Positions 18,012 to 62,803 of a DNA stretch of 64,000 nt are shown here, in pieces. The translations under genes and the position numbers were made by a program. The notes beneath the pieces were generated by a model, which was not told where the DNA came from, did not search any database, and was given only the letters and a program-made list of their open reading frames with translations. The DNA comes from Spirochaetae bacterium HGW-Spirochaetae-2. GTDB lineage: Bacteria; Spirochaetota; Spirochaetia; Sphaerochaetales; Sphaerochaetaceae. The DNA is taken from positions 1 to 64,000 of the forward strand of contig PGXW01000013.1 in assembly GCA_002839355.1 (NCBI GenBank), given 5' to 3'. The first letter of the stretch is position 1. Every line of letters begins with the position of its first letter.

Positions 18012-18042
18012 ACTGTAAACCTTATAGTAACTAGAGACTCAA
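18012..18042 (-). promoter_or_regulatory. MerR-type promoter (19-bp spacer) of the amidohydrolase/BMP operon
   Basis: On the minus strand: TTGAGT (complement of 18037-18042), a 19-bp spacer and TACAGT (complement of 18012-18017). The spacer contains the dyad-like CTTATAGTAACTAGAG (18021-18036), built around TAGT-A-ACTA-type half-sites. An over-long spacer filled by a dyad is the hallmark of MerR-activated promoters. Confidence 0.65.
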
Positions 18043-18045
18043 GCA

Positions 18046-46657: not shown

Positions 46658-47602
46658 TCACGTCCTGATTTCCCGGTTGAACGGCTTTCCCAAAGCAGAG
46701 GGTCCCGTCTTCTGTGACTTCCTTGAGAAAGCCAGGACGACAATAACCAGCGCGTAGGGAAGCATGACCAAGAATTCGTACGGGAAGTCGATGCCCAAAC
46801 CTTGTATCGCAAGCTGCAACGCCTGCGCAAGGGCAAAGAGCAATGCTCCCGCCATGATCTTCACCGGATGCCAGTGGCCGAAATAGACCAATGCCACGGC
46901 GATGAATCCCCGCCCGGCAATGATCTCATCGCTGAACATCTTGACCTGGCAAAGGCTCAGGTAGGCTCCGGCCAATCCGGCCAATGCTCCGCCGACGGCC
47001 AAGGCCTGGAAGCGCACCCTGTTTACCTGGATACCGATCGAATCGGCGGCACGGGGGTGGGTTCCGACTGCCCGGACCCTGAGACCCCACGGTGTCTTGA
47101 ACAGGATATACCAAGCTATGGGTACGAAAAGGAACGCCACATACACCATCGGGTTGTGGTTGAAGAACAATGTCCCGAGGATGGGAATTCTCGAAAGTCC
47201 AGGAATCGGCGCGGTGTTGATGCCCGGAACACTCTGCGTACCACCGATAAAGTGGCGGAACAACGTTCCCGCGGTTCCCACACCGAACATCTGCATACCG
47301 ATTCCCGCAATGCCCTGTGGAGCGCGGAATGTGACGACGACCAGGCCGAAGAAGAGTCCAAGGAGTGCCCCGACACCCGAGGCCAACAACAGGCCCAGGT
47401 AGTTGTAGATACCGGGCACGTCGGCGCCCTGTCCGATCGTGTATGGAACGAGCATCCCGAGGAACGCGCCCATGGCCATCATGCCTTCGCAACCGAGGTT
47501 GAAGATTCCCGAGCGCTGGTTGAACATTTCTCCGAGGGAGGCTATGAGCAGTGCGACGGAGAAGGGGATTCCCAATGAAAGGATATTGACGATGAATGTC
47601 AT
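46658..47602 (-). CDS. ABC transporter permease, BMP/nucleoside type, operon 2 (second permease)
   Basis: 314 residues of hydrophobic helices. Landmarks are MFNQRSGIFNLGCEGMMAMGAF, PQGIAGIGMQMFGVG and GRGFIAVALVYFGHWHPVK, the NupQ/YufQ-type pattern. Its start overlaps the preceding permease by 4 bases. It is paralogous to the gene at 12.0-12.95 kb but not close to it. It ends the operon, followed by a strong terminator. Confidence 0.93.
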   Translation of the reverse strand: MTFIVNILSLGIPFSVALLIASLGEMFNQRSGIFNLGCEGMMAMGAFLGMLVPYTIGQGADVPGIYNYLGLLLASGVGALLGLFFGLVVVTFRAPQGIAGIGMQMFGVGTAGTLFRHFIGGTQSVPGINTAPIPGLSRIPILGTLFFNHNPMVYVAFLFVPIAWYILFKTPWGLRVRAVGTHPRAADSIGIQVNRVRFQALAVGGALAGLAGAYLSLCQVKMFSDEIIAGRGFIAVALVYFGHWHPVKIMAGALLFALAQALQLAIQGLGIDFPYEFLVMLPYALVIVVLAFSRKSQKTGPSALGKPFNREIRT

Positions 47603-48708
47603 GCCTGCACCTCCTGGTTCGAACGTTTCGCTGCGATTGCGGCAAATTTGGACTCGACACGTTGCATGAGGTAGGGGTTCGCCAACACCATCTTCGTTGC
47701 CACGATGACAAGGATGATGATGCCTTGCAGGACCTGCACCATGTTCGCAGGTACTCCCACCAACCGTTGGGTCATGTCGGCTCCATAGATCAACAGTCCG
47801 AAGAAGAAGGCGGCAGGAAGGATTCCCGCCGGGTGCAAACCACCGAACAGGGCAACGACGATTCCCGAGAATCCGTACCCCGAGGTGACACCCTCGATCG
47901 CCCTTCTGTGGACGCCGGCGATTTCGATCGATCCGGCGATTCCTGCGAAACCACCGCTGATCATCATGGCGATGATCAGGTATTTCGGTACATTGATGCC
48001 GCCATAGCGGGCAGCCCGTTCGGAGGCCCCCGCAGCCCGCATCTTATAGCCGTAGGATGTTTTCCACAGCAACAGGAAAATGAGCACGGCCAAGCCGATG
48101 GCTATGAATAGTCCGCTATGGATACGTGTTCCCGGTATGAATCGGGTGAGGTCGAGGTTGCGCGTCAGCCGCATGGATTGCGGTGTACCGCTTCCCATGG
48201 TGAGTTCCGCCGGATCGAGCATCGGACCACGCAGGAAGAACGTGTACAACTGCGCCGCTATATAGTTCAACATGACGGTCGAAAGCAACTCGCTCACCTC
48301 AAGCTTGGCCTTCAGGAATCCCGGGATGAACCCCCAGGCCGCCCCTCCCACCATTCCGGCAAGGATCGCAAACGGTATGAGCACTCCACTGGGAAGGTTG
48401 GGGAAGGCCAGTGCGATCGCTGTGGTCGCGAGGATGCCCATGGCCATCTGGCCCTCGGCACCGATATTGATGATCCCGCTCCGGTACGCCACGGTAATGC
48501 CCAACGCGATTATGGTAAGCGGTACCATGCGCAACAACACCTCGGTTATGCCGATCTTGTTCTTCAACGGTTCGGTCAAGATGACCATATAGGTCTTGAA
48601 CACATCGGCTCCGATAGCCCAGAGAATCACCGCTCCCAACAACATGGTTATGATGATAGCCAGGACGATGACCCCGATCCTGTAGCCTGTCTTAAATCTC
48701 TTCGTCAT
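47599..48708 (-). CDS. ABC transporter permease, BMP/nucleoside type, operon 2 (first permease)
   Basis: 369 residues, NupP/YufP-like. Segments: MVPLTIIALGITVAYRSG, INIGAEGQMAMGILA, LSTVMLNYIAAQLYTFFLRG and SGYGFSGIVVALFGGLHPAG. It overlaps the ATPase gene by 17 bases, and its stop overlaps the next permease start, so three genes are tightly coupled. It forms the channel with the second permease. Confidence 0.93.
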   Translation of the reverse strand: MTKRFKTGYRIGVIVLAIIITMLLGAVILWAIGADVFKTYMVILTEPLKNKIGITEVLLRMVPLTIIALGITVAYRSGIINIGAEGQMAMGILATTAIALAFPNLPSGVLIPFAILAGMVGGAAWGFIPGFLKAKLEVSELLSTVMLNYIAAQLYTFFLRGPMLDPAELTMGSGTPQSMRLTRNLDLTRFIPGTRIHSGLFIAIGLAVLIFLLLWKTSYGYKMRAAGASERAARYGGINVPKYLIIAMMISGGFAGIAGSIEIAGVHRRAIEGVTSGYGFSGIVVALFGGLHPAGILPAAFFFGLLIYGADMTQRLVGVPANMVQVLQGIIILVIVATKMVLANPYLMQRVESKFAAIAAKRSNQEVQA

Positions 48709-50230
48709 CTTTGACTCCTGCCATAAGGATACCGAGCCGGCGACGACTCGCTTCGCTGCTGGGCAGGACCTTTTGGATCTTGCCCTTGAAGATTACGGCA
48801 ACCTGGTCGGAGAGGTTCGTAATCTCCTCAAGTTCTTCCGAAATCAAAAGGATTCCGACGCCTTCGTTGCGTTTTTGCAGCAATTGCTTGTGGATGAATT
48901 CGGCCGCGCCCATATCGAGCCCTCGGGTCGGGTATACGGCGATAAGGAATTTCGGACTTCGGGAAATTTCCCTGGCCAGGATGACCTTCTGGATGTTTCC
49001 TCCCGAAAGCGATCCTGCGGCGACTTCAATGTTCGGGCTTCTGATATCGAATTGCTGGCGCAGCTGCTCCGCTTCCACATCCACGACCTTGTTTTTCAAA
49101 AACGAGTGGGAGCTGTATTTCTCGGAGTCGGTATCCTTGAGTATGAAGTTCTCCTTCATGGAGAAGGAAGGGACGATTCCCTCGGTATTCCGTTCTTCCG
49201 GAATGTATCCCATTCCCGCTTGTATGACCTGGACAGGGCTGCGGTTCGCAATGTCCTGCCCGTCGAACAGGATCTGGCCCGATTCGACTTTGCGCAGACC
49301 GTTGATCGCCTCGGCCAACTCACGCTGTCCATTGCCCGAGACACCCGCCAGACCGACAATCTCACCCTTGCAAATATACAGCGACAAGTCGTCCAGGGCG
49401 AGGAAACCGCGGTCGCTGCGGACCTTGAGGTTACGCAGTTGCAGCATGGGCCCCATCGTGCATGCCGGAGCATCGTTGTGGGGGAGGACAACCTCGTGGC
49501 CTGTCATGAGGGCGGCGATATCGCTGGAGGAGTGGTCGATGGTATTTCCTTGGAACACCACACGTCCGTGGCGGAGTATGGCAACCTTGCTGGAAAGGTC
49601 CTTGACCTCCTGCAGCTTGTGGCTGATGAAGATGATCGACAGTTCCCCCGACATCCTTTTGAGCAGGGCGATCAGGTCGTCCGTCTCCTGCGGGGTCAGC
49701 GCGCTGGTCGGTTCGTCGAGGATCAGGAACCGGGCCCCGAGACACAGTGTCTTGACCAGTTCGACCCGTTGCTGTTCGCCGACGGAGAGTTGCCATATGA
49801 AGGCATCGGGATCGACTGCGAGTCCATATTGTCTGGCCACCGCATCTATGCGGTCGCGAACCATATGCAAATCTAGTTTCCAGGGTTTCCATGCCTGTTT
49901 GAATCCCAAGGCAATGTTTTCCAGGACAGTCATGTTCGGAACCAGCATGTACTGTTGGTGCACCATGCCGATCCCATAGGCGAACGCATCGTTGGGAGAC
50001 CGGAAATTGACCTCCTCGCCATTGATGAGGATCTTGCCCTCATCGGGGTGATACAAGCCCATCAAGACATTCATCAGTGTGGTCTTTCCAGCACCGTTCT
50101 CACCTACGAGAGCAAGGACCTCGCCCTTTCCGATATCCAGGGAGATGTCGTCACAAGCCAAGACACCGGGAAAGCGTTTGGTTATGTGCTCGATTCGCAA
50201 GCTGTCGATGGCTTTCGTTGTTAATTCCAT
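48692..50230 (-). CDS. ABC transporter ATP-binding protein, BMP/nucleoside type, operon 2
   Basis: 512 residues with two ATPase domains. Walker A GENGAGKT is at residues 43-50, then signature LSVGEQQRVE and Walker B FLILDEPTSALTPQE. The second domain has a degenerate loop (AGVSGNGQRE), signature LSGGNIQKV and YPTRGLDMG. GGAGG lies 6 bases before the ATG at 50230. It is separated from the binding-protein gene by an attenuator-like terminator, so its expression is expected to be lower than that of the binding protein. Confidence 0.95.
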   Translation of the reverse strand: MELTTKAIDSLRIEHITKRFPGVLACDDISLDIGKGEVLALVGENGAGKTTLMNVLMGLYHPDEGKILINGEEVNFRSPNDAFAYGIGMVHQQYMLVPNMTVLENIALGFKQAWKPWKLDLHMVRDRIDAVARQYGLAVDPDAFIWQLSVGEQQRVELVKTLCLGARFLILDEPTSALTPQETDDLIALLKRMSGELSIIFISHKLQEVKDLSSKVAILRHGRVVFQGNTIDHSSSDIAALMTGHEVVLPHNDAPACTMGPMLQLRNLKVRSDRGFLALDDLSLYICKGEIVGLAGVSGNGQRELAEAINGLRKVESGQILFDGQDIANRSPVQVIQAGMGYIPEERNTEGIVPSFSMKENFILKDTDSEKYSSHSFLKNKVVDVEAEQLRQQFDIRSPNIEVAAGSLSGGNIQKVILAREISRSPKFLIAVYPTRGLDMGAAEFIHKQLLQKRNEGVGILLISEELEEITNLSDQVAVIFKGKIQKVLPSSEASRRRLGILMAGVKDDEEI

Positions 50231-50261
50231 GAAAGGCCTCCAATCCGAACCAAAATACAAC

Positions 50262-50308
50262 ACTTAAAAAATTCCTGCACGCCGATGGTTTCACCGCCAT
50301 GCAGGAAT
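50262..50308 (-). terminator. Intercistronic terminator/attenuator after the BMP binding protein
   Basis: ATTCCTGCA and TGCAGGAAT (50271-50279, 50300-50308) pair over 9 bp, with further GGCG-type pairing inside. On the minus strand a T-run follows (TTTTTT). It lies between the binding-protein gene and the ATPase gene. Confidence 0.8.
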
Positions 50309-50341
50309 ATGTCGTCCGTTACGTTATGATACTGAAGCGGC

Positions 50342-51367
50342 TCAGTTGTATTTGACGCTGCTCCAGTTCACGACCGATGCGTGGCCTGCTTGACCTTTGA
50401 ATGCAGCCAAAGCTTCGTTGACCTTCGCTTCGATTGCAGGGGTGATTTTGGACTTTGTCGCTTCATTGAATTTGAACACGAATCCGTTGTTGTTGAAGTT
50501 CATGGGAATGTTCTCTCCGCCGACAATGCCTGCATCGAGTTTCTTGACCAGCGTGTTGATTACCGCGGCATAGTTGTAGGAGGAAGCCGAAAGGACCTTG
50601 TAGCCTTCGGGGATTCCGATCTGGGCAAGATCTTGACCGACCCACCAGATGTCCCTGTTGCGGTAGTCGGCGACTGCACGCAAACCGCCGAGTGCCTGCT
50701 GTGAGGAACCGGTGAGGATGTCTGCACCACTGCGGATCTGGGATTGTGCCACTTCGGTTGCTTTCACGAAATCGGAGAAGCTTCCAGTGTGGGCGACCAT
50801 GACGTTGGCAGCGGAATTCACAGCCTTGACACCAAGGACGAAACCACGGTTGTAACGGGCTGCGTCACCACCATCGACAGGACCGATGAGTCCGATCGTG
50901 TTGGTCTTGGTGAGCATGCCGGCGATCAATCCGTTGAGGTAACCGGTTTCTTCACTTTCGGGCATATATGAGAATACGTTGGGTCCGACGATTTCGGAAC
51001 TGGTTCCGAATGCGAAGGAAATGTTCGGATACTCGGCAGCCATTTCGGTAATGAGGTTCTTGTACTGCGCTCCGTGACCTATGATGATGTCATAGCCTTG
51101 GCCGGCATACTGCAAGACAGCCGAGCCGGCATCGACAGGCTTCATCTTTTCACTATAGCTGTATTCGATGCGACCAGGATTCTGCTCCATTGCAAGAGTG
51201 ATTCCGTCGTGCATAGCCTGGCACCAGCCTTTGTCATCGATAGTGTTTTCGATGATGAGTGCAATCTTGATGACATCGCTGTCGACTTTCTTCTCGGCAG
51301 CACCTTGGGCAAAAACCATGCCCGCGACCAACGAGAGCATCAAGACGAGGATCAGAAACTTCTTCAT
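50342..51367 (-). CDS. BMP family substrate-binding protein, operon 2
   Basis: 341 residues. The signal peptide (KKFLILVLMLSLVAGMVFA) is probably cut before QGAAEKK. BMP landmarks: NTIDDKGWCQAMHDGITLAM, YDIIIGHGAQYKN and TIGLIGPVDGGDAARYNRGF. The ATG at 51367 has AGGAG 8 bases upstream. It differs clearly from the 15.6-kb protein, so the ligand may differ. The gene is divergent from the AroE-like carbohydrate operon, raising the possibility that its ligand feeds that pathway. Confidence 0.94.
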   Translation of the reverse strand: MKKFLILVLMLSLVAGMVFAQGAAEKKVDSDVIKIALIIENTIDDKGWCQAMHDGITLAMEQNPGRIEYSYSEKMKPVDAGSAVLQYAGQGYDIIIGHGAQYKNLITEMAAEYPNISFAFGTSSEIVGPNVFSYMPESEETGYLNGLIAGMLTKTNTIGLIGPVDGGDAARYNRGFVLGVKAVNSAANVMVAHTGSFSDFVKATEVAQSQIRSGADILTGSSQQALGGLRAVADYRNRDIWWVGQDLAQIGIPEGYKVLSASSYNYAAVINTLVKKLDAGIVGGENIPMNFNNNGFVFKFNEATKSKITPAIEAKVNEALAAFKGQAGHASVVNWSSVKYN

Positions 51368-51439
51368 GATCAAATCTCCTTGTGTAGTGTGATCATGTCT
51401 GAAACAAACTGCAACAAGTTCTTCCAGGCATGTTGGGGC

Positions 51440-51690: not shown

Positions 51691-51719
51691 TTGACATCTG
51701 GCGATTAGAGTAATAATAT
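51691..51719 (+). promoter_or_regulatory. Promoter of the AroE-like/KDPG aldolase operon
   Basis: TTGACA, a 17-bp spacer and TAATAT: an almost perfect sigma70 promoter. The expected start is about 51726. Confidence 0.8.
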
Positions 51720-51727
51720 ACGAACAA

Positions 51728-51755
51728 CCATACATAATGATACATATTATGGGGT
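51728..51755 (+). promoter_or_regulatory. Operator-like motif shared with the Gfo/Idh operon (site 1)
   Basis: CATACATAA followed by TG, ATACAT and ATTATGGGGT, just downstream of the predicted start site. CATAAT and ATTATG form an inverted repeat around 7 bases. Nearly the same sequence precedes the operon at 58.17 kb. Confidence 0.65.
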
Positions 51756-51823
51756 GGAAATGCGGGCCTGCACTCTCCAAAGCGGCAATTCCCGTCTGCC
51801 CACCTGATCCGGAAGGGAGGAAT

Positions 51824-52771
51824 ATGAGCACCTATACGCCTGCAGAAAAAGCGACAATGTATTTCATTGGGGTAACAACCGGGAAGTCTTCCATCATGAA
51901 GGTGTTTCCCAGGTGGATGGAGCATTTTGGTATCGATGCACAGATAAAGGGAATGGATTTCGTTCCCCACGACACGGGCGAACGGTATCGTGAAGCCGTG
52001 TCCTTCATCAAGTCGGACCCCTTGTCCCTCGGCGCGTTGGTGACGACCCATAAGATAGATTGCTATCGGGCCTGCAAGGACCTCTTCGAAGGATCGGGTG
52101 AGTATGCCCGATTGTTGGGGGAGGCAAGTTCGATCAGCAAGCGGGGAAAGCAGCTGTGGGCCCATGCGAAAGATCCCATCACCAGCGGTCTGGCGCTCGA
52201 GGCCTTCATGCCGAAAGGATACTGGGAAAACTCGGATGCCGAAATGCTCATCCTGGGCGCCGGTGGCAGTTCCCTTGCCTTGACCCTATATCTGGTCAAC
52301 AAAGCCAAGGAGAGCAAGGATGTTCCCAAGAAGATCATCGTCACCAATCGCAGTGAGGCCCGGCTCAACGAGATGCGGCATATCCATGGATTGCTGCAAT
52401 TTCCCTTCACCATCGAATACCACCTCTGTCCGACAGCGGCGCAGAATGACGTCTGGGTCTCTTCCCTTCGGCCAGGTTCCCTGGTTGTCAATGCGACGGG
52501 TCTGGGCAAAGATGGTCCCGGTTCTCCTGTGACCGATGCCGCGGTATTCCCTATGAACGGATATGTGTGGGAGTTCAATTACCGGGGAGACCTGGTGTAC
52601 CTGGATCAGGCACAGGCCCAAAAGGAGGTCCGCAACCTGGTGGTGGAGGATGGATGGGTGTATTTCATCCATGGGTGGACCCGGGTCATAGCAGAAGTGT
52701 TCCATATCGATATTCCGACCGAAGGGCCCGAATTCGATACCATTAGTGAAATCGCACGCACTACGCGCTGA
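51824..52771 (+). CDS. Shikimate dehydrogenase (AroE)-like oxidoreductase
   Basis: 315 residues, longer than biosynthetic AroE (about 270-290). The N-terminal substrate domain has GALVTTHK, the counterpart of AroE's NVTIPHK with the catalytic Lys. The Rossmann domain has LGAGGSSLALTLYL and VVNATGLGKDGPGSPV. The location at the head of a sugar operon, not with aromatic genes, indicates a catabolic NAD(P) dehydrogenase for a shikimate-like polyol or ketose. GGAGG lies about 4 bases before the ATG at 51824. The promoter and operator lie just upstream. Confidence 0.82.
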   Translation: MSTYTPAEKATMYFIGVTTGKSSIMKVFPRWMEHFGIDAQIKGMDFVPHDTGERYREAVSFIKSDPLSLGALVTTHKIDCYRACKDLFEGSGEYARLLGEASSISKRGKQLWAHAKDPITSGLALEAFMPKGYWENSDAEMLILGAGGSSLALTLYLVNKAKESKDVPKKIIVTNRSEARLNEMRHIHGLLQFPFTIEYHLCPTAAQNDVWVSSLRPGSLVVNATGLGKDGPGSPVTDAAVFPMNGYVWEFNYRGDLVYLDQAQAQKEVRNLVVEDGWVYFIHGWTRVIAEVFHIDIPTEGPEFDTISEIARTTR

Positions 52772-52786
52772 ATAGGAGATGAGATC

Positions 52787-53371
52787 ATGAAGGACATGGT
52801 ATCCAGAGTATTTTCTTTCGACATGAAGACCGGCAAGGCCCCCGCCTCCGATGCCGTTTCGCTCAAACGTCCGCTATCGGCACTAAAGAAGATATTTTCC
52901 GACCAGCAGGCGGCCGATGCCATCCTGGCCAACGGTGATCCGATGGTCTACGAATTCTACGACCTGCATATGCCGGAGAAGGAAGGCGATTTGGCTTTCG
53001 GCAGCAGTATCGTCTATCCGGGCACCGTAGGCAATGAATTCCATATGACCAAGGGTCACTTCCATACGATCATCGATACCGCCGAGGTCTACTACTGCCT
53101 GAACGGATATGGGATGATGATGATGGAGAGTCCAGAAGGTGCCATCGAATACCAGGAGATGCGGCCGGGTCAAGCTGTCTATGTCCCTGGCCGCTATGCG
53201 CACAGGAGCATCAACCTGTCGCATACCGAAACCCTTGTGACCTTCTTCGTGTTCCGTGCGGATGCCGGACATGATTACGGGACGATCGAGGAGCGGGGAT
53301 TCAGGAAACTTGTGGTGGTCGAAGGCGACGGATATGCTGTGGTCGACAATCCCAGTTGGGCTGGAGCATGA
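52787..53371 (+). CDS. Cupin-type glucose-6-phosphate isomerase
   Basis: 194 residues of the archaeal-type PGI family (PF06560). The metal site is in MTKGHFHTIIDTAEVYYCLNG (H-x-H and Glu), with a further His in VPGRYAHRSINLS. These enzymes interconvert aldose and ketose 6-phosphates. In this operon the substrate need not be glucose-6-phosphate. The short gap (15 bp) after the AroE-like gene and the near-overlap with the next gene place it in the same transcript. Confidence 0.9.
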   Translation: MKDMVSRVFSFDMKTGKAPASDAVSLKRPLSALKKIFSDQQAADAILANGDPMVYEFYDLHMPEKEGDLAFGSSIVYPGTVGNEFHMTKGHFHTIIDTAEVYYCLNGYGMMMMESPEGAIEYQEMRPGQAVYVPGRYAHRSINLSHTETLVTFFVFRADAGHDYGTIEERGFRKLVVVEGDGYAVVDNPSWAGA

Positions 53372-53382
53372 CGGAGGGATCC

Positions 53383-54312
53383 ATGGAGAATTCGAGAGGC
53401 AACGTCCTGGTGACACCCCGATCCTTGTCGAAGGAAGGGCACCCCGCCTTGCGCAAACTGGAGCAGTCCGGGTTCACAGTCCTTATGCCGTGGCCGGGCA
53501 AGCAACCTTCCGAAGAGCAGTTGCTGGAGGTCCTTCCCCACTGTGTCGGCTACCTTGCCGGTGTCGAGCCCATTTCCCGGAAAGTCCTTGAGGCTGCGAA
53601 ACGGCTCAAGATCATCAGCCGCAATGGAGTCGGTATCGACAATATCGATCTCGAGGCTGCGAAACGTCTTGCTATTGCGGTTGAGGGAACCCCTGGAGCC
53701 AACTCGCAGGGTGTTGCCGAACTGGCGCTCGGTCTGATGTTCGATTCCTTGCGCTCAATCGCTTTGAGCAACGCGGTGTTGAAAAGCGGGCAGTGGACCA
53801 GGAAGCTCGGCAGCGAGGTCCAGGGAAAGACACTTGGCCTGGTCGGGTGTGGGAATATCGGGCAACGGTTCGCCAAGATGGCGATCGGCATAGGTATGCG
53901 TGTAATCGGGTACGACCTCTACAGAAACGAAGGGTTTTCAAAGCTGGAAGGATTCGGGTATGTGGACTTGGATTCCGTTCTTACCGATTCCGATATCATT
54001 TCGCTCCATTGTCCGCCTGGTGATGCTCCCTTGTTGGATACGCGCACACTCGCTATGGTCACCCCTGGTGTGGTGGTGGTCAATACCGCAAGGGATTCCC
54101 TGGTGGATCATGGTGCCATGCTCGAGGCGTTGGAACGGGGCCAGGTCTTGGCGTACGCAACCGACGCCTTTGCGAAAGAGCCGCCGGAAATCGACGCCTT
54201 GTTCAACCACGAGTGTGTTATCCTCACCCCGCATCTCGGAGGGTTCACCAAGGAGAGTGTCGAACGTGCCACGGTTGCCGCAGTCGATAATATAGTGCAG
54301 TATTTGGGATAG
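53383..54312 (+). CDS. D-isomer-specific 2-hydroxyacid dehydrogenase (phosphoglycerate dehydrogenase-like)
   Basis: 309 residues. The NAD motif is LGLVGCGNIGQRFAKMA; the catalytic triad region is SRNGVGIDNIDLEAAKR (Arg), NTARDSLVDHGAM (near the Arg/Glu) and LTPHLGGFTKES (His). It lacks the ACT domain of long SerA, so serine biosynthesis is unlikely; it probably oxidises or reduces a sugar-acid. GGAGGG lies just before the ATG at 53383; an upstream in-frame ATG at 53368 overlaps the cPGI stop. Confidence 0.9.
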   Translation: MENSRGNVLVTPRSLSKEGHPALRKLEQSGFTVLMPWPGKQPSEEQLLEVLPHCVGYLAGVEPISRKVLEAAKRLKIISRNGVGIDNIDLEAAKRLAIAVEGTPGANSQGVAELALGLMFDSLRSIALSNAVLKSGQWTRKLGSEVQGKTLGLVGCGNIGQRFAKMAIGIGMRVIGYDLYRNEGFSKLEGFGYVDLDSVLTDSDIISLHCPPGDAPLLDTRTLAMVTPGVVVVNTARDSLVDHGAMLEALERGQVLAYATDAFAKEPPEIDALFNHECVILTPHLGGFTKESVERATVAAVDNIVQYLG

Positions 54313-54347
54313 TTGTACGTAAATGGATATCCATGGGGAGAAGTAGA

Positions 54348-54980
54348 ATGGAAAGAAATCTTACCGAAGCAATTGCACAGGTCAAACTGGTTCCGGTGAT
54401 CAAACTCACTAAAGTGGAGGATGCGCTTCCCCTTGTGGACGCATTGGTTGCCGGAGGGTTGCCTGTGGCTGAGATAACCTTCAGGACCTCGGCTGCCGCC
54501 AAGTCGATCGAAACGGTCCGTAGGCAAAGGCCGGATGTTCTCGTCGGGGCCGGCACTGTGCTGACAGTGGACCAAGCCCAACAGGCGATCGATGCCGGAG
54601 CGTCGTTCGTGGTTGCCCCGGGATTCAATCCGGCGGTGGTGGATTTTTGCATCGGCAAGAACATGCCGGTCTTCCCGGGGGTGACTTCCCCGACCGAGGT
54701 CGAGATGGGTCTGGCCCGCGGTCTGAAAGTGTTGAAATTCTTCCCGGCCGAGGCTGCGGGTGGTGTGGCGATGCTCAAGGCAATGGGTGCGGTGTATGAC
54801 GTACGGTTCATGCCGACCGGTGGTATCACAGAAAAGAATGTCCTGTCGTACCTTGGTTTGAAGAATGTATTGGCCTGTGGAGGCTCCTGGATGGTCAAAC
54901 CGGAGCTGGTCGATGCCGGTAAATTCGAAGAGATTGCCCAGATAACCCGCCAGGCGGTTGAATTGGTGAAAAACCTGTAG
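54348..54980 (+). CDS. KDPG/KHG aldolase family protein
   Basis: 210 residues. The Schiff-base lysine is K130 in VLKFFPAEAAGG, and the general base E42 is in VAEITFRT; both are intact, so aldol cleavage to pyruvate plus an aldehyde is expected. GGAG lies 7 bases before the ATG at 54348. No dehydratase that would make a 2-keto-3-deoxy acid is in the cluster, so either it is encoded elsewhere or a different keto acid is cleaved. Confidence 0.95.
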   Translation: MERNLTEAIAQVKLVPVIKLTKVEDALPLVDALVAGGLPVAEITFRTSAAAKSIETVRRQRPDVLVGAGTVLTVDQAQQAIDAGASFVVAPGFNPAVVDFCIGKNMPVFPGVTSPTEVEMGLARGLKVLKFFPAEAAGGVAMLKAMGAVYDVRFMPTGGITEKNVLSYLGLKNVLACGGSWMVKPELVDAGKFEEIAQITRQAVELVKNL

Positions 54981-54981
54981 C

Positions 54982-55884
54982 ATGGAAGCGCCACGTTGTT
55001 CCACCAGGCATGTTGACCTCTCCATGTGGCTCGCAGCGGCGAAATTGCAGGATGATACAACGGGCGACTTGGAGTTTGCCTGGATGGGACAGGCGGGATT
55101 CGTGTTCAAAGCAGGTGCGCTGCTGGTGGGAATCGACCTTTACCTGTCCGATTCGTTGGCCGAGAAGTATCGCAATGGCCATTTTCCCCATAAGCGGATG
55201 ATGGCTCCTCCCATATCCCCACAGCAGGCGAGGCCGCTTGCCGTACTGGCAAGTACCCATGGACACACCGACCACATGGATGCCGGTACGATTGGTCCCA
55301 TATACCGCGACATGGAGGAACGTGGTCCCCTGTTCATCTGTCCCCGTGCCGAAATGGCGAAGGCGATGGAGCGGGGCGTTCCCGCAAATCGGATCCTCGG
55401 CTTGGATGCGTACGAATCCTTCACATGGTCCCCGAAAGGCAAGGGAGGGTATTCGTTTACCGCACTGCCGGCCGCCCATGAGGAGTTGAGCCAGGATTCG
55501 TCGGGAAACCATGTGTATCTGGGATTTGTCATGGATATCGCGGGGTACCGCATCTACCATAGTGGAGATTGTGTTCCGTATCCTGGTTTGGGGAAGACCC
55601 TACGTGCCCTGGGAATCGATATCGCACTGCTTCCTGTGAATGGAAGGGACGAGGCCCGCTCTTCGCATGGTGTTCCGGGAAACTTCACCATCGACGAGGC
55701 AATTCGATTGAAAGCAGAAGCCGGAATACCGCTCCTCGTTGTGCACCACTTTGGTCTGTTCGACTTCAACACTGTGTCGGTAGAAGAAATTGCCCGAAAA
55801 GCAGGGGATGCCGATCTGATAGTGGGAAAAGATTGTCTGATACCCGAACCTGGTGTGGTATACTCATGCAGGTCCAAAGGATGA
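54982..55884 (+). CDS. Metallo-beta-lactamase-fold hydrolase (UlaG-like)
   Basis: 300 residues. The metal motif is STHGHTDHMDAGTI (H-x-H-x-D-H); other ligands are probably in AAHEELSQ, YHSGDCVPYPGL and VVHHFGLFDFN. The closest characterised relative by pattern is L-ascorbate-6-phosphate lactonase UlaG. In the cluster it could open a lactone or a cyclic keto-polyol. It begins 1 bp after the aldolase stop, so it is translationally linked. No ascorbate PTS genes are nearby. Confidence 0.87.
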   Translation: MEAPRCSTRHVDLSMWLAAAKLQDDTTGDLEFAWMGQAGFVFKAGALLVGIDLYLSDSLAEKYRNGHFPHKRMMAPPISPQQARPLAVLASTHGHTDHMDAGTIGPIYRDMEERGPLFICPRAEMAKAMERGVPANRILGLDAYESFTWSPKGKGGYSFTALPAAHEELSQDSSGNHVYLGFVMDIAGYRIYHSGDCVPYPGLGKTLRALGIDIALLPVNGRDEARSSHGVPGNFTIDEAIRLKAEAGIPLLVVHHFGLFDFNTVSVEEIARKAGDADLIVGKDCLIPEPGVVYSCRSKG

Positions 55885-55891
55885 GCACAAG

Positions 55892-56656
55892 ATGATAGAT
55901 GGCTTTCTACTTGAAAAGAAGTTGAACAAGAATATTCCCATTCCCCTGTACTATCAGTTGAAAGAGCTGTTGATGGAGTATATTTCGGTCAGTGACGAAA
56001 ACACGCCGCTTCCAACGGAATCGCAGCTGTGTGAACATTTCCAGGTCTCCCGGTCCACTGTCCGCCAGACGCTCGGGGAGTTGACCAGCGATGGATTCCT
56101 CGTGCGCCACAAGGGCAAGGGGACCATGATCCTTCCACGAAAGATTGATCAGGATTTTCTTGTCGTCCTCGAGAGTTTCAACGACGAGATGCACGAGAAG
56201 GGCTACACCCCCCATACCGAAGTATTGAGCCTTACCGTTCAAGAGGCATCTCCCTCGGTCGCCAAGGCCTTGAAGATTGCCAAGGGGGACCCTGTGGTGA
56301 ATCTGGTACGTTTGCGCGGAGCAAATTCGGTTCCCATGGTCCTGGTTTCGTCCTATCTTCCCGCCGCTTTCAATGGTTTGGGTTCCTTGGTCACAGAAGA
56401 TCTGGTGAACAATTCCCTCTATCGGATCATGGAGGACACGTACCATGTCCCCATCGAATCGAGCCGACGTGTCATTGAGATCCGGTTGGCGGGTGATTTC
56501 GAAGCGTCGCACCTCAAGGTGGCTCCCCATGCCCCGCTGCAATACATCGAGACTATTTCCACCACCACGGACAACATTCCCGTCGAGTTCTCCAAAGCTT
56601 CGTACCGCGGGGATATCAGCAGGTTTGTCATAGAGATCAGGAAAAAGCGGATCTGA
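55892..56656 (+). CDS. GntR/HutC family regulator with UTRA domain
   Basis: 254 residues from the ATG at 55892; the ribosome-binding site is weak (AGGAT). The N-terminal winged helix contains PIPLYYQLKELLMEY, LPTESQLCEHFQVSRSTVRQ and LVRHKGKGTMI. The C-terminal UTRA ligand domain starts near residue 90 and ends with EFSKASYRGDISRFVIEI. It is the last gene of the AroE-like operon and the natural candidate to bind the motif shared at 51.73 and 58.11 kb. The ligand is probably a phosphorylated pathway intermediate. Confidence 0.92.
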   Translation: MIDGFLLEKKLNKNIPIPLYYQLKELLMEYISVSDENTPLPTESQLCEHFQVSRSTVRQTLGELTSDGFLVRHKGKGTMILPRKIDQDFLVVLESFNDEMHEKGYTPHTEVLSLTVQEASPSVAKALKIAKGDPVVNLVRLRGANSVPMVLVSSYLPAAFNGLGSLVTEDLVNNSLYRIMEDTYHVPIESSRRVIEIRLAGDFEASHLKVAPHAPLQYIETISTTTDNIPVEFSKASYRGDISRFVIEIRKKRI

Positions 56657-56663
56657 GTTCCTA

Positions 56664-57989
56664 TTAGAGTCGTTCGATGGTGAGACCGAACACCTCGGCA
56701 ACACATTCAATTCTCGCCAATTGATGTCCTGTAAGTAGTATTTGGTGATGCGAATAGATATCCTTCATGAGTCTGTGACTATCGGGGACCTTTACAATCG
56801 CACCATTGCGACAATCCGATCCCGGATATTGCACATACCCTTTCAGTTCCCCTTCGATCACCATGATATGTTCCATTGCCGCATCGATCTTGACCATGGT
56901 GATGGGACCGACAGGATACCTGGCGTTGAGCATATGGGCGTTCTTGTCGACAATTCTCAACACAGGAGCTGTAGCTTCCCAAGATTCGGCAAAGCTATGG
57001 GGCATGAGCCCGAAGTATCCGCAGTGTGCCAGGAGGATATGGTTCTCCGGTTCATCGAGCAATTCGGGGAATGATGGAATTCCCTCATGCTTGAGGGCCG
57101 CCATACCCATGAGCACCGGATATATGTTTGTCATCATCACTGGAGTACCAAGGGCATTGTGCAACAAGTATTTGGTGGTCAATGATAAGGTATCGCCTTC
57201 GCAAGCCCAGAGTATCCGTTCCCGTTCATAGAGCAGATTCCATGCGATGCATGGGGTCGAGGAGGAAAACCGCGATTCGTTCAGACAATTTGATCCGATT
57301 CCCCCGATACCTTCTTGTCCTTCCATGTACTTTTTAACGGCAAGATAATATTTTGCCGCACCAATCTTCGCTTGTTTCGATAACGATTCGTGCATGGGGA
57401 ATTTCCAAGAGGCAATTTCCTCGAGCGCGTCCTCCTCCGGAATGGATTTCTCAACCTTGCCCAATTCCTCGAGACTTGTTCGTTCAACCGTTACACCGAA
57501 TTTTTCGTGTAATAGTTGCGTACATTCGGTACCCCACCAATAGAAGCATTTGAAGATATCGGGTTGGAACCCTTGGCCGGGATTGTCTTGGAAAATAACA
57601 AACTTCGTCTGTTTCATCTGTCGCTTCAACGCGAGACTTCTGCATAAGACTTGGCTCTGATCCTTGTTGTATGGAGCGAGGACTCGTACTCCTTTTCCCT
57701 TCAGGAAATTCATGATTTCCCAATCCCACATGGAAATGGTCATGAATTCACTGGTTAGTATAAGAATCGGAACCTTGAAGGAGTCAAACAGATCGGCGCA
57801 TTCATAGGCTTCTCCCAAGATTTCGGGAAAAACAACCGCATCGGCTTCCTCGGGAACCGGATCTCCCAATCCGATAGGCTGGAGCAATACCACTTGGCCA
57901 TGCAATTCCCGCTTGATTGTATCAAGTTGCTTGAAAAATTTTTCGGTTCTATCCCGTTTGAAAAATACCGGTGCGAGTATTGTATCCAT
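56664..57989 (-). CDS. L-fucose/L-arabinose isomerase-like family protein
   Basis: 441 residues from the ATG at 57989, with GGGAG 7 bases upstream. The Rossmann-like N-terminal half (residues 1-160) is followed by a domain with EPENHILLAHCGYFGLMP and a C-terminal HHQILLTGHQLARIECVAEV. These resemble the fucose-isomerase superfamily, but I do not see the full FucI metal signature with certainty. Its role is probably an aldose-ketose isomerisation. It converges on the GntR gene and is divergent from the Gfo/Idh operon. Confidence 0.7.
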   Translation of the reverse strand: MDTILAPVFFKRDRTEKFFKQLDTIKRELHGQVVLLQPIGLGDPVPEEADAVVFPEILGEAYECADLFDSFKVPILILTSEFMTISMWDWEIMNFLKGKGVRVLAPYNKDQSQVLCRSLALKRQMKQTKFVIFQDNPGQGFQPDIFKCFYWWGTECTQLLHEKFGVTVERTSLEELGKVEKSIPEEDALEEIASWKFPMHESLSKQAKIGAAKYYLAVKKYMEGQEGIGGIGSNCLNESRFSSSTPCIAWNLLYERERILWACEGDTLSLTTKYLLHNALGTPVMMTNIYPVLMGMAALKHEGIPSFPELLDEPENHILLAHCGYFGLMPHSFAESWEATAPVLRIVDKNAHMLNARYPVGPITMVKIDAAMEHIMVIEGELKGYVQYPGSDCRNGAIVKVPDSHRLMKDIYSHHQILLTGHQLARIECVAEVFGLTIERL

Positions 57990-58023
57990 GCACGTTCTCC
58001 CAGTTAGAAAAGATATCCATGTA

Positions 58024-58051
58024 ACTCTATCATGCTGCAATCGATTGTCAA
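58024..58051 (-). promoter_or_regulatory. Putative promoter of the isomerase-like gene
   Basis: On the minus strand: TTGACA (complement of 58046-58051), a 16-bp spacer and TAGAGT (complement of 58024-58029). The shared operator motif lies more than 55 bp upstream of it. Confidence 0.5.
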
Positions 58052-58106
58052 GAAGAGCTCGAATAGGTTGACAATCCATCGTAGATATGTAGTTATATAA
58101 TAACAA

Positions 58107-58132
58107 GCATACATAACCATACATTATGGGGT
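58107..58132 (+). promoter_or_regulatory. Operator-like motif shared with the AroE-like operon (site 2)
   Basis: GCATACATAA, CC, ATACAT and TATGGGGT, just after a TATAAT at 58096-58101 and before the Gfo/Idh gene. CATAA and TTATG are inverted around 7 bases. It matches site 1 at 51728-51755 except for two inserted and a few changed bases. Confidence 0.65.
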
Positions 58133-58173
58133 ATGCACACCATTTTCGAGTGTTGTGAACAGAAGGAGTCGAT

Positions 58174-59184
58174 ATGATCAATGTGTGTGTGATAGGTTCC
58201 GGCAGGGCTGGAATGATCCATGCCCGTAATTTTGCCAGTCGGGTCACCGGTGCAAAATTGGTCGCGTTGTGTGACCCCGTACCCGAAGCATTGGCATCGG
58301 CAGCAAAGGAGCTTGGGATTGAAAAGACCTACACGGACTATCGCCAAGTGCTTGAGGATCCGTCGATCCATGCCGTTGTGGTAGTTACCCCTACGGTGTT
58401 CCATCGAGATATCGTGTGTGCGGCCGCAGAGGCGGGAAAGCACGTGCTCTGCGAGAAACCCATGGCGATGAACGAGACGGAATGCCTTGAGATGAACGCG
58501 GCGGCGGACAAGCATGGCATCAAACTGCAAATCGGCTTCATGCGGCGGTTCGACGAAAGTTTCCGCTATGCGAAGAAACAGATAGAAAGTGGCGCGATCG
58601 GCGATGTCGTATTGGTCAAATCGGTGACCCATGGCCCGAGCATTCCACAACCCTGGATGTACGATATCAAAAAGAGCAACGGGCCCTTGGCCGAAGTGTC
58701 CAGCCATGACATCGATGCCCTTCACTGGTACACAGGCAGTTATATTTCAGAGGTATATGCGATTGCAGGCAACTATCGAAGCCCAGATGCAGTTGCGGAT
58801 TATCCCGATTTCTATGATAATGTGGTCATGACGGCTCGTTTCCTGTCCGGTGCCCAAGGCCTTCTCGACGGCGCGCAGGGAGTCCGGTATGGATATGATT
58901 CCCGGGTGGAGATACTGGGAACGAAAGGCATTATCCATGTGGGAAGGAATCAGGAACATTCGGTGTTGACTGTGAGTCCGGAGGGAATCCATGCTCCCTA
59001 TGTGCAAAGTTGGCGAACCTTGTTCCTCGATGCGTACTACGAGGAGGACAAGGCCTTTGTCGCCTCCATTGCCGAGGATACGATGCCACTTGTGACTGGT
59101 TTGGATGGCTTGGAGGCTGTTCGGGTCGTGAACGCGGGAAACACATCGATTATTGAAAAACGTCCGGTCGTGATCCGGCGCTAG
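58174..59184 (+). CDS. Gfo/Idh/MocA family oxidoreductase (inositol 2-dehydrogenase-like)
   Basis: 336 residues. The N-terminal NAD motif is IGSGRAGMIHARNF, with CEKPMAMNE (catalytic Lys) at about residue 95, and VSSHDIDALHWYTG, the D-x-x-x-H signature seen in inositol dehydrogenases. It probably oxidises one hydroxyl of a cyclic polyol or sugar. It is the first gene of a three-gene operon with a Zn-ADH and an FGGY kinase, preceded by operator site 2. Confidence 0.92.
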   Translation: MINVCVIGSGRAGMIHARNFASRVTGAKLVALCDPVPEALASAAKELGIEKTYTDYRQVLEDPSIHAVVVVTPTVFHRDIVCAAAEAGKHVLCEKPMAMNETECLEMNAAADKHGIKLQIGFMRRFDESFRYAKKQIESGAIGDVVLVKSVTHGPSIPQPWMYDIKKSNGPLAEVSSHDIDALHWYTGSYISEVYAIAGNYRSPDAVADYPDFYDNVVMTARFLSGAQGLLDGAQGVRYGYDSRVEILGTKGIIHVGRNQEHSVLTVSPEGIHAPYVQSWRTLFLDAYYEEDKAFVASIAEDTMPLVTGLDGLEAVRVVNAGNTSIIEKRPVVIRR

Positions 59185-59193
59185 GAGGAAAGT

Positions 59194-60240
59194 ATGAAGG
59201 CTGCGTGTCTTACTGGTAAAGAATCGATTGTCATACGGGACGTTCCGGTTCCGGAAATCGGACCTGGCGATGTCCTGGTCAAGGTAAAGAGTGCTTTTGT
59301 CTGTGGAACCGACGTCAGGTTCTTCCTCAATGGCAAGGCAGGGGTGGACGATGCGAACCCGCGGGTCCTTGGACATGAGTTCGCTGGAGTGATCGAGCGC
59401 GTCGGAGCTCGTGTCGCAGGCTACACCGTCGGTATGAATGTTGCGATCGCCCCCAATTATGGATGTGGAATCTGCGACTTGTGTGTCAGTGGCCACAGCG
59501 AGATGTGCGCGGCCTCGGAAGCGCTGGGAGTATCGATCGACGGTGGATTCGCCGAGTATGTCCGTATTCCCGAAGCGGCCGTACGGCAAGGAAACATTTC
59601 CCAGATACCTGAAGGATTGTCCTTTGCCGAGGCAGCCCTGGCCGAACCCCTGTCCTGTGTATTCAACGCCTATGAGAAGATCGGGATATTTCCCGGCGAT
59701 ACGGTCCTGGTGATCGGAAGCGGACCTATCGGTATCATGCATTGCCTCGTGGCACTCATGGCCGGAGCCACCAATGTGTATATCAGCGATATTTCCGAGC
59801 AGCGGATGGATCTTGCCCGTTCGATCGACAGCCGCATCCGCAAATTGGTGGCAGGAGAATCGCAGTTGCGGGAATTCAAGCGGCTTACCAATGGCAAGCT
59901 TGCCAATCTGGTCATAACCGCGGCTTCTGTCGGTGCTATCCAGGAACAGGCTTTTGCCCTTGCCGGACAGAATGGACGAGTCATGTTCTTTGGAGGACTT
60001 CCCTCGGGGAAATCCGTGGTGCAGCTGGATACCAACGAGATCCACTATAAGCAACTGCTCGTCGGTGGCACCACCCGGCAGAGCCTGGCCCAATACCGCA
60101 AATGCCTCGAACTGATTGCCAGTCGTGCCATCGATATACGACCGATCATCACCTCCGAAGGTTCCTTGGACGATATCGTCCAGGCAATCCTGGAAGCGAG
60201 AGGCGGTGTCGGATTGAAACGCGCGATCAACTTCAGCTAA
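59194..60240 (+). CDS. Zinc-dependent medium-chain alcohol dehydrogenase (sorbitol/threonine dehydrogenase-like)
   Basis: 348 residues. The catalytic zinc site starts at VCGTDVRF and continues at LGHEFAGVIERVG; structural zinc cysteines are in YGCGICDLCVSGHSEMC; the NAD motif is VIGSGPIGIMHCLVA. AGGAGG lies before the ATG. It follows the Gfo/Idh gene by 9 bp. Together they could oxidise two positions of the same polyol, as in the inositol gene set reported for Thermotoga, recalled from memory. Confidence 0.93.
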   Translation: MKAACLTGKESIVIRDVPVPEIGPGDVLVKVKSAFVCGTDVRFFLNGKAGVDDANPRVLGHEFAGVIERVGARVAGYTVGMNVAIAPNYGCGICDLCVSGHSEMCAASEALGVSIDGGFAEYVRIPEAAVRQGNISQIPEGLSFAEAALAEPLSCVFNAYEKIGIFPGDTVLVIGSGPIGIMHCLVALMAGATNVYISDISEQRMDLARSIDSRIRKLVAGESQLREFKRLTNGKLANLVITAASVGAIQEQAFALAGQNGRVMFFGGLPSGKSVVQLDTNEIHYKQLLVGGTTRQSLAQYRKCLELIASRAIDIRPIITSEGSLDDIVQAILEARGGVGLKRAINFS

Positions 60241-60256
60241 ACAAGGGGAGCAGACC

Positions 60257-61810
60257 ATGGTACTCGCAAAATCACAAGAGACCTATGTAATCGGGATCGA
60301 TATTGGAACTCAGGGTGTCAAGGGTGCCTTGTTCAGATCAGATGGCTATTGTGTGGCGGAACATGGCGAAGCCTCGCGATTGGAACATCCCCAACCGGGT
60401 GCGATCACAGAAGATCCCGAGTTCCAGTACGGTTCGGTTCTTAGGATTATCCGCTCGTGCCTGGACAAGGCTGAAGCCCAAGGGATCGCATCCATTGCAT
60501 CGAAGGTGGCTTGTCTTGCCATAGACGGCCAGATGGCCGGTGTCATCGGTGTCGGCTCGGATGGTATGGCAGTGACTCCCTACGATTCTTGGCTCGACTC
60601 CCGGTGTGCTCCCTATCTTGAACGGATGCGTTCCGAAGCGAATGACCTGATCCTTGAAAAGGCAGGTACGGCACCAAGCATCAACCATGGACCGAAAAAG
60701 CTCTGGTGGAAACAGGAACATCCCGAGACCTTCTCCAAAATCTCAAGATTCGTTCAGCCGGGTGGATACGTCGCGGCACGATTGTGCGGATTGAAAGGCG
60801 ATGAAAGTTTCATAGACAGGACCTACCTCCACTTCTCGGGTTTTTCCGATACCGCCCACGGCCGGTGGGACAGCGAATTGTGCGCACTGTTCGACATGCC
60901 AATGGAGAAACTGCCGGATATCGTCGAGTCGACGGCTATCGTAGGCACCGTTTCCAAGGATGCGGCCAAGGCCTGCGGCCTCAGGGAAGGCATTCCCGTG
61001 GCCGCCGGATGCGGCGATACGGTCGCCAGCTTCTTGTCCAGCGGGGCTGTCGAGGAGGGCATGTGTGTGGATGTCGCGGGCACTGCAAGCGTATTCGCCT
61101 GCACGCAGAAGCGATTTGTTCCCGACCATACGAGCGGCATCCTCGGTTGTTGCGCGTCGGTGGTCCCTGACCTTTGGTATTCGTATGCCTATATCAACGG
61201 CGGCGGCATGAATCCCGAATGGTTCGTGAAGAAATTTGGTGGTGCCGAGGGTTCCCTGCGATTCAAGGATATCGAGGCGGAAATTGTCACCATGAAGGAT
61301 TCCCCGACACTTCCGTTGTTTATTCCCCACATGGCAGGTAGGGTGATGCCCGGACGACCCGATTTGCGGGGTGCCTTCGTAGGCATGCATTGGGACCATG
61401 GCAAAGTGGAACTTTTCCGGGCTATCCTGGAAAGCGTGGCGTTGGAATATGGATTGTACAAGGATGCCGCCACGGCCCTGCAACCGGACTTGCGAATCAA
61501 GGAGGTCCGGGTCACCGGGGGAGGAGAGCGGAGCCTTGTATGGAACACCATGAAATCGGGCGTCCTGCAAACCCCCGTGGTACGGATCAAGCAGAATCAA
61601 GGCGCACCCATGGGAATCGCCATGGTCGCGGCTGTTGCTGTGGGCTTGTACGGAGGATTCCCTGAAATCGCCAGTGACTGGATCACAACGGGTGAGAAAA
61701 TCACGTGTGAACCATCACGATATCCGTTCTTCGCAAAACGGTTGGAAGCGTACCGTGGGTTGCTCGATTCCATGGAGCATTTTACCACACGCTTCCCGTT
61801 CAGCGTCTAG
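60257..61810 (+). CDS. FGGY family carbohydrate kinase (xylulokinase-like)
   Basis: 517 residues. The N-terminal ATPase core is IGIDIGTQGVKGALF, with LAIDGQMAGVIGV, GCGDTVASFLSSGAVEEG and VDVAGTASVFA, and the C-terminal nucleotide site VTGGGERSLVWNTM. It phosphorylates a ketose or polyol; xylulokinase is the nearest common annotation, but the exact sugar is unknown. It is the third gene of the Gfo/Idh operon, with AGGGGAGC before the ATG, and converges on the PfkB gene. Confidence 0.92.
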   Translation: MVLAKSQETYVIGIDIGTQGVKGALFRSDGYCVAEHGEASRLEHPQPGAITEDPEFQYGSVLRIIRSCLDKAEAQGIASIASKVACLAIDGQMAGVIGVGSDGMAVTPYDSWLDSRCAPYLERMRSEANDLILEKAGTAPSINHGPKKLWWKQEHPETFSKISRFVQPGGYVAARLCGLKGDESFIDRTYLHFSGFSDTAHGRWDSELCALFDMPMEKLPDIVESTAIVGTVSKDAAKACGLREGIPVAAGCGDTVASFLSSGAVEEGMCVDVAGTASVFACTQKRFVPDHTSGILGCCASVVPDLWYSYAYINGGGMNPEWFVKKFGGAEGSLRFKDIEAEIVTMKDSPTLPLFIPHMAGRVMPGRPDLRGAFVGMHWDHGKVELFRAILESVALEYGLYKDAATALQPDLRIKEVRVTGGGERSLVWNTMKSGVLQTPVVRIKQNQGAPMGIAMVAAVAVGLYGGFPEIASDWITTGEKITCEPSRYPFFAKRLEAYRGLLDSMEHFTTRFPFSV

Positions 61811-61861: not shown

Positions 61862-62803
61862 TCACTTGAATCGCGGGAAGTGCTCGCCTTTGACCGTTCC
61901 AGGTTTCAAGTTGAGCGCATTCGCCTTTCCGCAGGCAATTCCCATGGAGACACAGGCTTCCATGGGAAGTCCTTCGCTGATGCCATAAGCCAAACCGGCG
62001 GTAAAAGAGTCTCCGCAGCCGATGGTATTGACCGGAACCACCGCGTCGACTCTCCTCTCATCGATTGTTCCTCCATGACAGGTAAATACCGAGCGCGCCC
62101 CTTGGGTAAGGACGGTGGTGACCCCATATGTCTGCTCAAGCTCCAGCATCCGCTCTTTCACGGCATCCAGGATGCTGGATTCGGTCGCGTGTTCCTTGAA
62201 CGTTTCCTTTGGGAATAGGGTTTCGGAAAACTCCTTCAAGTTCGGTTTGATCACAGCCGGACGGTATTCCAGCGAGTTCAGCAGATCATCTCCCCGGACA
62301 TCCAGGACTATCTTCTTACCCAGTGCCGCCGCTGTCCGTACCATCCATGGAATGATATCGTCGGAATATCCGGAGGCCTTGGTTCCGCTTATGGTCACGA
62401 TCCCCACATCCTTCACCAGCTCGGCATACTGGTCCCGCAACAGGCTGTCGGTTTCCCCGCATACGGGTACCGCCTCCTCGACGATTTCCGTCACCGTGTG
62501 GTGTTCCTGGTTTATCAGGGTGTAGCAAAGCCTGATCTCACTCTTGGAGTCGACGATATGTACCTGTACGCCATCTTCGGCCAACATGGAGGCGAAGGTA
62601 TCCCTGAACAGTCCTCCCCCGTGGGTCAGGTGGATGGTCCGGGCTCCCAGTTCGGTAAGGACCCGAGCGGTATTGGCTCCCTTCCCCGCAACACTGAACA
62701 GGTAGTTCCCGCTACGGTTGACTTCATTTTCCCAAAGATGTTCGAGGACGATTGTCTTTTGCATGACAGGATTCAAGCCTACAGCCAATATCTTTTGTAA
62801 CAT
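61862..62803 (-). CDS. PfkB family sugar kinase (1-phosphofructokinase/tagatose-6-phosphate kinase-like)
   Basis: 313 residues. LAVGLNPVMQKTIVL and AGKGANTARVLTELG are the N-terminal PfkB signature of the FruK/LacC branch. The catalytic Asp is in VNTIGCGDSFTAGLAYG; Cys replaces the usual Ala/Ser in G-x-G-D, a tolerated variation. It phosphorylates a sugar phosphate, probably to a bisphosphate. It is 9 bp downstream of the AraC-type regulator, so the two are likely cotranscribed. Confidence 0.92.
   Translation of the reverse strand: MLQKILAVGLNPVMQKTIVLEHLWENEVNRSGNYLFSVAGKGANTARVLTELGARTIHLTHGGGLFRDTFASMLAEDGVQVHIVDSKSEIRLCYTLINQEHHTVTEIVEEAVPVCGETDSLLRDQYAELVKDVGIVTISGTKASGYSDDIIPWMVRTAAALGKKIVLDVRGDDLLNSLEYRPAVIKPNLKEFSETLFPKETFKEHATESSILDAVKERMLELEQTYGVTTVLTQGARSVFTCHGGTIDERRVDAVVPVNTIGCGDSFTAGLAYGISEGLPMEACVSMGIACGKANALNLKPGTVKGEHFPRFK

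Follow-up and report, generated by a model that had tools for sequence, protein, structure and literature searches.

What does a bacterium degrade with a set of genes that includes the aldolase of the Entner–Doudoroff pathway and no sugar-acid dehydratase of the Edd/IlvD kind? The question is posed by 64,000 nucleotides (hereafter, the window) from contig PGXW01000013.1 of Spirochaetae bacterium HGW-Spirochaetae-2, a spirochaete with a 3.6 Mb genome (G000). Its nearest named relatives are Spirochaetae and Sphaerochaetaceae metagenome-assembled genomes (MAGs), and a sister species (G001) serves below as the closest comparison. Ten genes, all intact open reading frames, fill positions 51824 to 61810, and the families that an earlier note on this DNA had given them agree with those found here. 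The note supposed a catabolic locus with a 2-keto-3-deoxy-6-phosphogluconate/2-keto-4-hydroxyglutarate (KDPG/KHG)-family aldolase at its end; the locus is indeed real, conserved and, in all likelihood, co-regulated. From gene content and its conservation, we think it probable that the pathway runs through phosphorylation, a lactone, a D-2-hydroxyacid dehydrogenase (HADH) and the aldolase, whatever the sugar. The full scheme developed below, a dehydratase-free phosphorylative Entner–Doudoroff-like pathway on a 3-deoxyketohexose, is more tentative; we judge it slightly less probable than its being wrong in some part. The ten genes are as follows.

51824..52771, plus strand: AroE-like dehydrogenase (shikimate dehydrogenase fold), a proposed aldose-6-phosphate 1-dehydrogenase
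52787..53371, plus strand: cPGI, cupin-type phosphoglucose isomerase (Pfam GPI, 3e-29; H91, H93, E100 and H139 conserved)
53368..54312, plus strand: HADH (Pfam 2-Hacid_dh_C, 2e-45)
54333..54980, plus strand: KDPG/KHG aldolase, class I (5e-68; Schiff-base lysine conserved)
54982..55884, plus strand: UlaG-like hydrolase of the metallo-beta-lactamase (MBL) fold, a proposed sugar-phosphate lactonase (Lactamase_B_2, 2e-18; HxHxDH conserved)
55892..56656, plus strand: GntR/UTRA regulator (family match; adjoins the core also in G001, G023 and others)
56664..57989, minus strand: L-arabinose/L-fucose isomerase-fold protein (AlphaFold model and structure match)
58174..59184, plus strand: Gfo/Idh/MocA oxidoreductase (IolG-like, under the equivalog cut-off)
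59194..60240, plus strand: zinc-dependent MDR alcohol dehydrogenase (Zn-ADH; family match)
60257..61810, plus strand: FGGY carbohydrate kinase (XylB-like, under cut-off)

A core that recurs across phyla

One scan with the AroE-like protein found it in 78 further loci from about ten bacterial phyla, its hosts being Spirochaetota, Alpha- and Betaproteobacteria, Planctomycetota, Verrucomicrobiota/Lentisphaerota, Hydrogenedentes, Actinomycetota, Bacillota, Chloroflexota, Bacteroidota and others. Within the window's own group, seven of 61 genomes carry it, G000 included. The spread is patchy, a pattern that resembles horizontal transfer. Core genes were counted in those 62 loci that reach 15 kb in length, some on MAG contigs that may be chimeric or truncated; the AroE-like gene is there in all 62 by selection, cPGI in 56, a lactonase of the UlaG-like or phosphotriesterase (PTE) family in 53, HADH in 51, an FGGY kinase in 45 and the KDPG aldolase in 38. 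Co-occurrence in other genomes was the earlier note's own test, and its outcome is strongly positive.

Around this constant core the front ends vary, as gene-order maps and counts over the 62 loci show. The window has the first, Gfo/Idh, ADH and FGGYa, joined in half of the cases by the isomerase-fold protein, which occurs only in loci with FGGYa (8/8). Rhizobia and some Actinomycetota have an SDR, ADHs and a GlpK-like kinase, and other loci have FGGYb with SDR, MDR or GldA-type dehydrogenases. Two compact loci, L076 of Sediminivirga luteola and L079 of Leucobacter chromiisoli, contain kinase, PTE lactonase, cPGI, aldolase, AroE-like protein, HADH, a regulator and an ABC transporter. Mutual exclusion of the isomerase-fold (FucI) protein and a 3-epimerase was not significant (p = 1). 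Separately, a levoglucosan-dehydrogenase-like Gfo and a TIM-barrel protein without an NCBIfam match stand together in 7/7 informative loci (L012, L022, L024, L030, L044, L083 and L008), mostly with the isomerase-fold protein, and are a candidate 3-keto-glycoside front end.

One pointer to the chemistry comes from the lactonase. Among the 62 loci, 40 have the UlaG-like protein, 13 a PTE-family protein and none both (Fisher 6e-8); over all loci the figures are 50 and 15. The best NCBIfam match of the PTE proteins is phospho-furanose lactonase (177 bits, below its cut-off of 630), and among solved structures 3msr comes nearest to them. Because two unrelated folds with one known chemistry swap in the same place, and because the core also holds cPGI and a kinase, hydrolysis of a sugar-phosphate lactone is indicated, and the intermediate is likely to be a phosphorylated lactone and not a carbocycle. 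Of the earlier suggestion that the MBL enzyme could open a ring or a lactone, it is the lactone that gains support.

A second pointer is the tie between HADH and the aldolase. Every one of the 38 cluster aldolases stands alongside HADH, and none of the 11 loci without HADH has one (Fisher 5e-6, 62 loci). Where no cluster aldolase was recognised, all 20 genomes searched encode one elsewhere, against 8 of 14 control genomes; the rhizobial loci L035, L041 and L063 are such cases. The nearest solved structures to HADH are 3-phosphoglycerate dehydrogenases, enzymes for a phosphorylated 2-hydroxyacid. Taken together, these observations make it probable that the aldolase receives its 2-keto acid substrate from HADH. 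The aldolase itself scores above the KDPG/KHG subfamily cut-offs (NF004325, 269.6 against 241; TIGR01182, 249.6 against 156), and cPGI closely resembles an archaeal glucose-6-phosphate isomerase (1j3p, E 2e-52).

Two proteins, the AroE-like and the isomerase-like, have no Pfam match. The AlphaFold model of the AroE-like protein (pLDDT 93.8) has the two-domain shikimate dehydrogenase fold (2hk9, E 3e-16, TM 0.70/0.83), bearing out the name it was first given. K81 and D121 (alignment numbering) are invariant in 32 homologues and were matched by inspection to the catalytic K65 and D102 of AroE. The best score against the shikimate dehydrogenase equivalog is 36.3 bits, far under the cut-off of 295. 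Among the top structural matches is 5-ketofructose reductase, an AroE-fold enzyme that acts on a sugar (7cok; PMC7954740). The isomerase-like model (pLDDT 89.5) has the L-arabinose/L-fucose isomerase fold (4f2d, E 1e-19). In L061 and L082, the AroE-like gene and its neighbour (cPGI or the isomerase-like gene) form a single stop-free frame; the apparent AroE–cPGI (L061:674-2209) and AroE–FucI (L082:504-2840) fusions were discarded because a ribosome-binding site and an ATG lie at each junction.

Which sugar?

The reactions, their order and the substrate we infer as follows. The Gfo/Idh oxidoreductase, Zn-ADH and isomerase-fold protein would supply a ketose, the FGGY kinase would phosphorylate it at C6 and cPGI would turn the ketose 6-phosphate into an aldose 6-phosphate. 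The AroE-like enzyme would oxidize this at C1 to the lactone 6-phosphate, the UlaG-like (or PTE) enzyme would open the lactone to an aldonate 6-phosphate, HADH would oxidize C2, and the aldolase would give pyruvate and glyceraldehyde 3-phosphate (G3P). The order kinase, cPGI, AroE-like enzyme, lactonase, HADH, aldolase is a parsimonious one. The mass balance (one kinase, one isomerase, two oxidations, one lactone hydrolysis) is a calculation from reactions that we assume and not something observed: if KDPG (C6H10O6 unphosphorylated) is what the aldolase cleaves, the free ketose would be C6H12O5, a 3-deoxyketohexose with D-erythro configuration at C4–C5. An example would be 3-deoxyfructose, which could arise from 3-deoxyglucosone or a 3-deoxyhexitol.

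The genes around the core speak on both sides. DeoC genes accompany several variants, inside the locus or close by, which fits deoxy chemistry. Three of these are related loci (L016, L017 and L085) that have no KDPG aldolase in the cluster; in Sinorhizobium meliloti Ak57, DeoC is collinear with the core. In the same three Sphaerochaeta-type loci, a 202-residue protein without an NCBIfam match (L017:13196-13801) directly adjoins DeoC.

Several points weigh against the 3-deoxy scheme. Six loci have a D-psicose 3-epimerase-like protein within the operon or close to it (382 against a cut-off of 300 in L042), and a 3-deoxyketose has no C3 hydroxyl to epimerize. Upstream of the core in L017 is a decarboxylating 6-phosphogluconate dehydrogenase, which needs that same hydroxyl. 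3-Deoxyketoses are not known to be an abundant natural carbon source. The literature searched, which took in few subscription journals, yielded no aldose-phosphate dehydrogenase of the AroE family. Finally, the locus statistics include related genomes and treat related loci as independent.

The strongest competitor, itself unlikely in our view, keeps the same enzyme order and makes the substrate an ordinary rare ketohexose or hexitol (ketose C6H12O6). HADH would then yield a 2-keto-hexonate 6-phosphate, which the KDPG-aldolase homologue would split into hydroxypyruvate and G3P. The 3-epimerase genes suit it, as do the many polyol-type dehydrogenases (GldA, GolD/DthD family, MDR) of the rhizobial loci and the FucI/AraA-fold isomerase. 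It sits badly with an aldolase that retains its family residues and exceeds the KDPG/KHG cut-offs, and no recurring hydroxypyruvate-processing gene was seen in the clusters.

Less likely again is a core that makes a normal aldonate 6-phosphate, with an unlinked or unrecognized dehydratase forming KDPG and HADH in a side role. A KDPG aldolase is present, non-orthologous dehydratases are possible by sequence, and Edd occurs in the four alphaproteobacterial genomes tested. Those four, by curated hidden Markov model cut-offs (the basis of all genome-wide gene counts here), are the only ones with Edd among 25 genomes; the other 21, G000 included, fall below. No locus contains an Edd/IlvD homologue, other dehydratase families not having been searched exhaustively, and this alternative leaves the tight HADH–aldolase link unexplained. 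Zwf, counted as a check on redundancy, is above cut-off in 10/20 genomes and does not discriminate. In L114 (Marinovum algicola pMaD8), a dihydroxyacid/phosphogluconate-type dehydratase (16428-18158) and TRAP transporter genes adjoin the core on the opposite strand, apparently as a separate sugar-acid cluster.

The earlier note favored a cyclitol, a quinate-like compound or a rare sugar acid as substrate. We regard a cyclitol pathway like that of Thermotoga for myo-inositol as improbable: in it, Gfo and ADH would oxidize the ring twice, the UlaG-like enzyme would hydrolyze the diketone, and an epimerase and reductases would lead to KDPG. The Gfo protein is nearest IolG (287.8 bits), the ADH has an IolM match (181.8 bits) and the 3-epimerase of some loci has a weak IolO match; both scores, however, are under the curated cut-offs (355 and 450). 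Gfo is found in only 17 of the 62 loci, whereas UlaG/PTE, cPGI and the kinase persist, and the replacement of UlaG by a phospho-furanose lactonase homologue suits a lactone, not a cyclic diketone. Catabolism of a quinate/shikimate type by a true dehydrogenase is very improbable: the AroE fold and its catalytic Lys and Asp are conserved, but the equivalog score is 36 against 295, no dehydroquinase or dehydroshikimate dehydratase was noted in the loci, and kinase, cPGI and lactonase would be left without a role.

We return, then, to the 3-deoxyketohexose. Its widest formulation would be an undescribed form of the Entner–Doudoroff pathway that takes 3-deoxyhexuloses, 3-deoxyfructose from Maillard-type 3-deoxyglucosone being one example, and dispenses with the dehydratase. 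It would include the first aldose-phosphate oxidizer of the shikimate dehydrogenase family and have spread horizontally among bacteria of soil, sea, sediment and gut; this reading is possible and rather doubtful. The literature searched gave no description of the gene set, of 3-deoxyfructose catabolism or of phosphorylated-lactone pathways, so that, in keeping with the earlier note, no published pathway assignment of the locus came to light. By its UlaG score it is not a locus for ascorbate use.

Operator and neighbors

The AroE and Gfo operons share an operator, as had been predicted. Its box has the form CATACATAA..ATACAT..TATGGGG and lies directly downstream of the AroE promoter and upstream of the Gfo operon. 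The regulatory features and flanking genes are these.

51691..51719, plus strand: sigma-70-like promoter TTGACA-17-TAATAT of the AroE operon (motif match)
51729..51754, plus strand: operator copy 1, CATACATAATGATACATATTATGGGG (conserved in G001)
58108..58131, plus strand: operator copy 2, CATACATAACCATACATTATGGGG (conserved in G001)
61862..62803, minus strand: PfkB-family hexose kinase (beside the FGGY gene also in G001 and G017; pathway membership uncertain)
46658..51373, minus strand: divergent BMP-type ABC transporter, with binding protein, ATPase and two permeases (pathway membership uncertain)

In G001, ~26 kb of a single contig separate the two operons, and each retains its own box; a shorter operator pattern has one further match in the G000 and G001 genomes, which falls within a coding sequence and was discarded for that reason. 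A common regulon is therefore likely. The GntR/UTRA protein encoded nearby is a candidate for the regulator that binds the box. Regulators differ among loci (GntR-UTRA, RpiR-SIS, DeoR), all of types that commonly sense sugar phosphates. The promoter call is weak alone, with eight sites of its type in the region against 8.6 by chance. The AroE-like protein probably starts at the ATG at 51824, just downstream of AGGGAGG, since a start at 51737 overlaps the operator. For HADH the probable start is 53368, in an ATGA overlap with cPGI.

The ~26 kb in G001 (contig C27; L092, L093 and L008) are extra sugar genes between the GntR and isomerase-fold genes, encoding GatZ-like, DeoC, FGGY, psicose-epimerase-like, tagatose-kinase-like and LacI proteins and a levoglucosan-dehydrogenase-like Gfo; G000 is without them there. 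Synteny of the BMP-type transporter with the AroE operon is kept within the genus only, and the closest model for its ATPase is a putative vitamin B6 transporter, below cut-off. As a guide to the substrate, cluster ABC binding proteins were compared with solved structures: one family has no close relative and another a weak match to 4ry9.

The module beside known systems

Annotation of this module has gone gene by gene, under housekeeping names that mislead (shikimate dehydrogenase, phosphoglycerate dehydrogenase, glucose-6-phosphate isomerase and eda), although it is present in about ten phyla, among them rhizobia, on large plasmids, and Lachnospiraceae/Blautia of the gut. The rhizobial plasmid genes bear these four labels and that of MBL-fold hydrolase. 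If our scheme is true, the AroE family would gain a new role and KDPG a new entry route, and microbial removal of Maillard-derived deoxy sugars would have a possible explanation. Leucobacter, Microbacterium, Shinella and Rhizobium are small culturable hosts.

Thermotoga's inositol pathway (IolG, IolM, IolN, IolO), to which the locus had been likened, shares the Gfo and Zn-ADH pair and, in some loci, a TIM-barrel epimerase. Those dehydrogenases fall outside the recurring core and below the IolG and IolM cut-offs, and the likeness does not extend to a core of kinase, cPGI, AroE-like protein, phospholactonase and HADH. IolN is an MBL-fold hydrolase; no IolN model appeared among the matches of the window proteins, its sequence itself not having been compared. 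The L-ascorbate (ula) pathway shares the MBL-fold lactonase family of UlaG (L-ascorbate 6-phosphate lactonase), but the equivalog score here is 25.5 against 306 and other ula genes were not seen. Among solved structures, the PTE protein found in place of UlaG is closest to phospho-furanose lactonase (3msr/3ovg), and its 177 bits against 630 put it in a related subfamily. 5-Ketofructose reductase of Gluconobacter/Tatumella likewise has the shikimate dehydrogenase fold, with a ketohexose as its substrate (7cok; PMC7954740); its sequence similarity is distant (28.6 bits, family profile), and the substrate proposed here is a phosphorylated aldose. From the Entner–Doudoroff pathway the locus differs in lacking the defining dehydratase: HADH would stand in for Edd, the AroE-like protein for Zwf and UlaG/PTE for Pgl, and a different sugar would have a kinase and cPGI of its own. 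What the two would have in common is oxidation of a hexose 6-phosphate to a lactone, a lactonase, and a KDPG aldolase that gives pyruvate and G3P.

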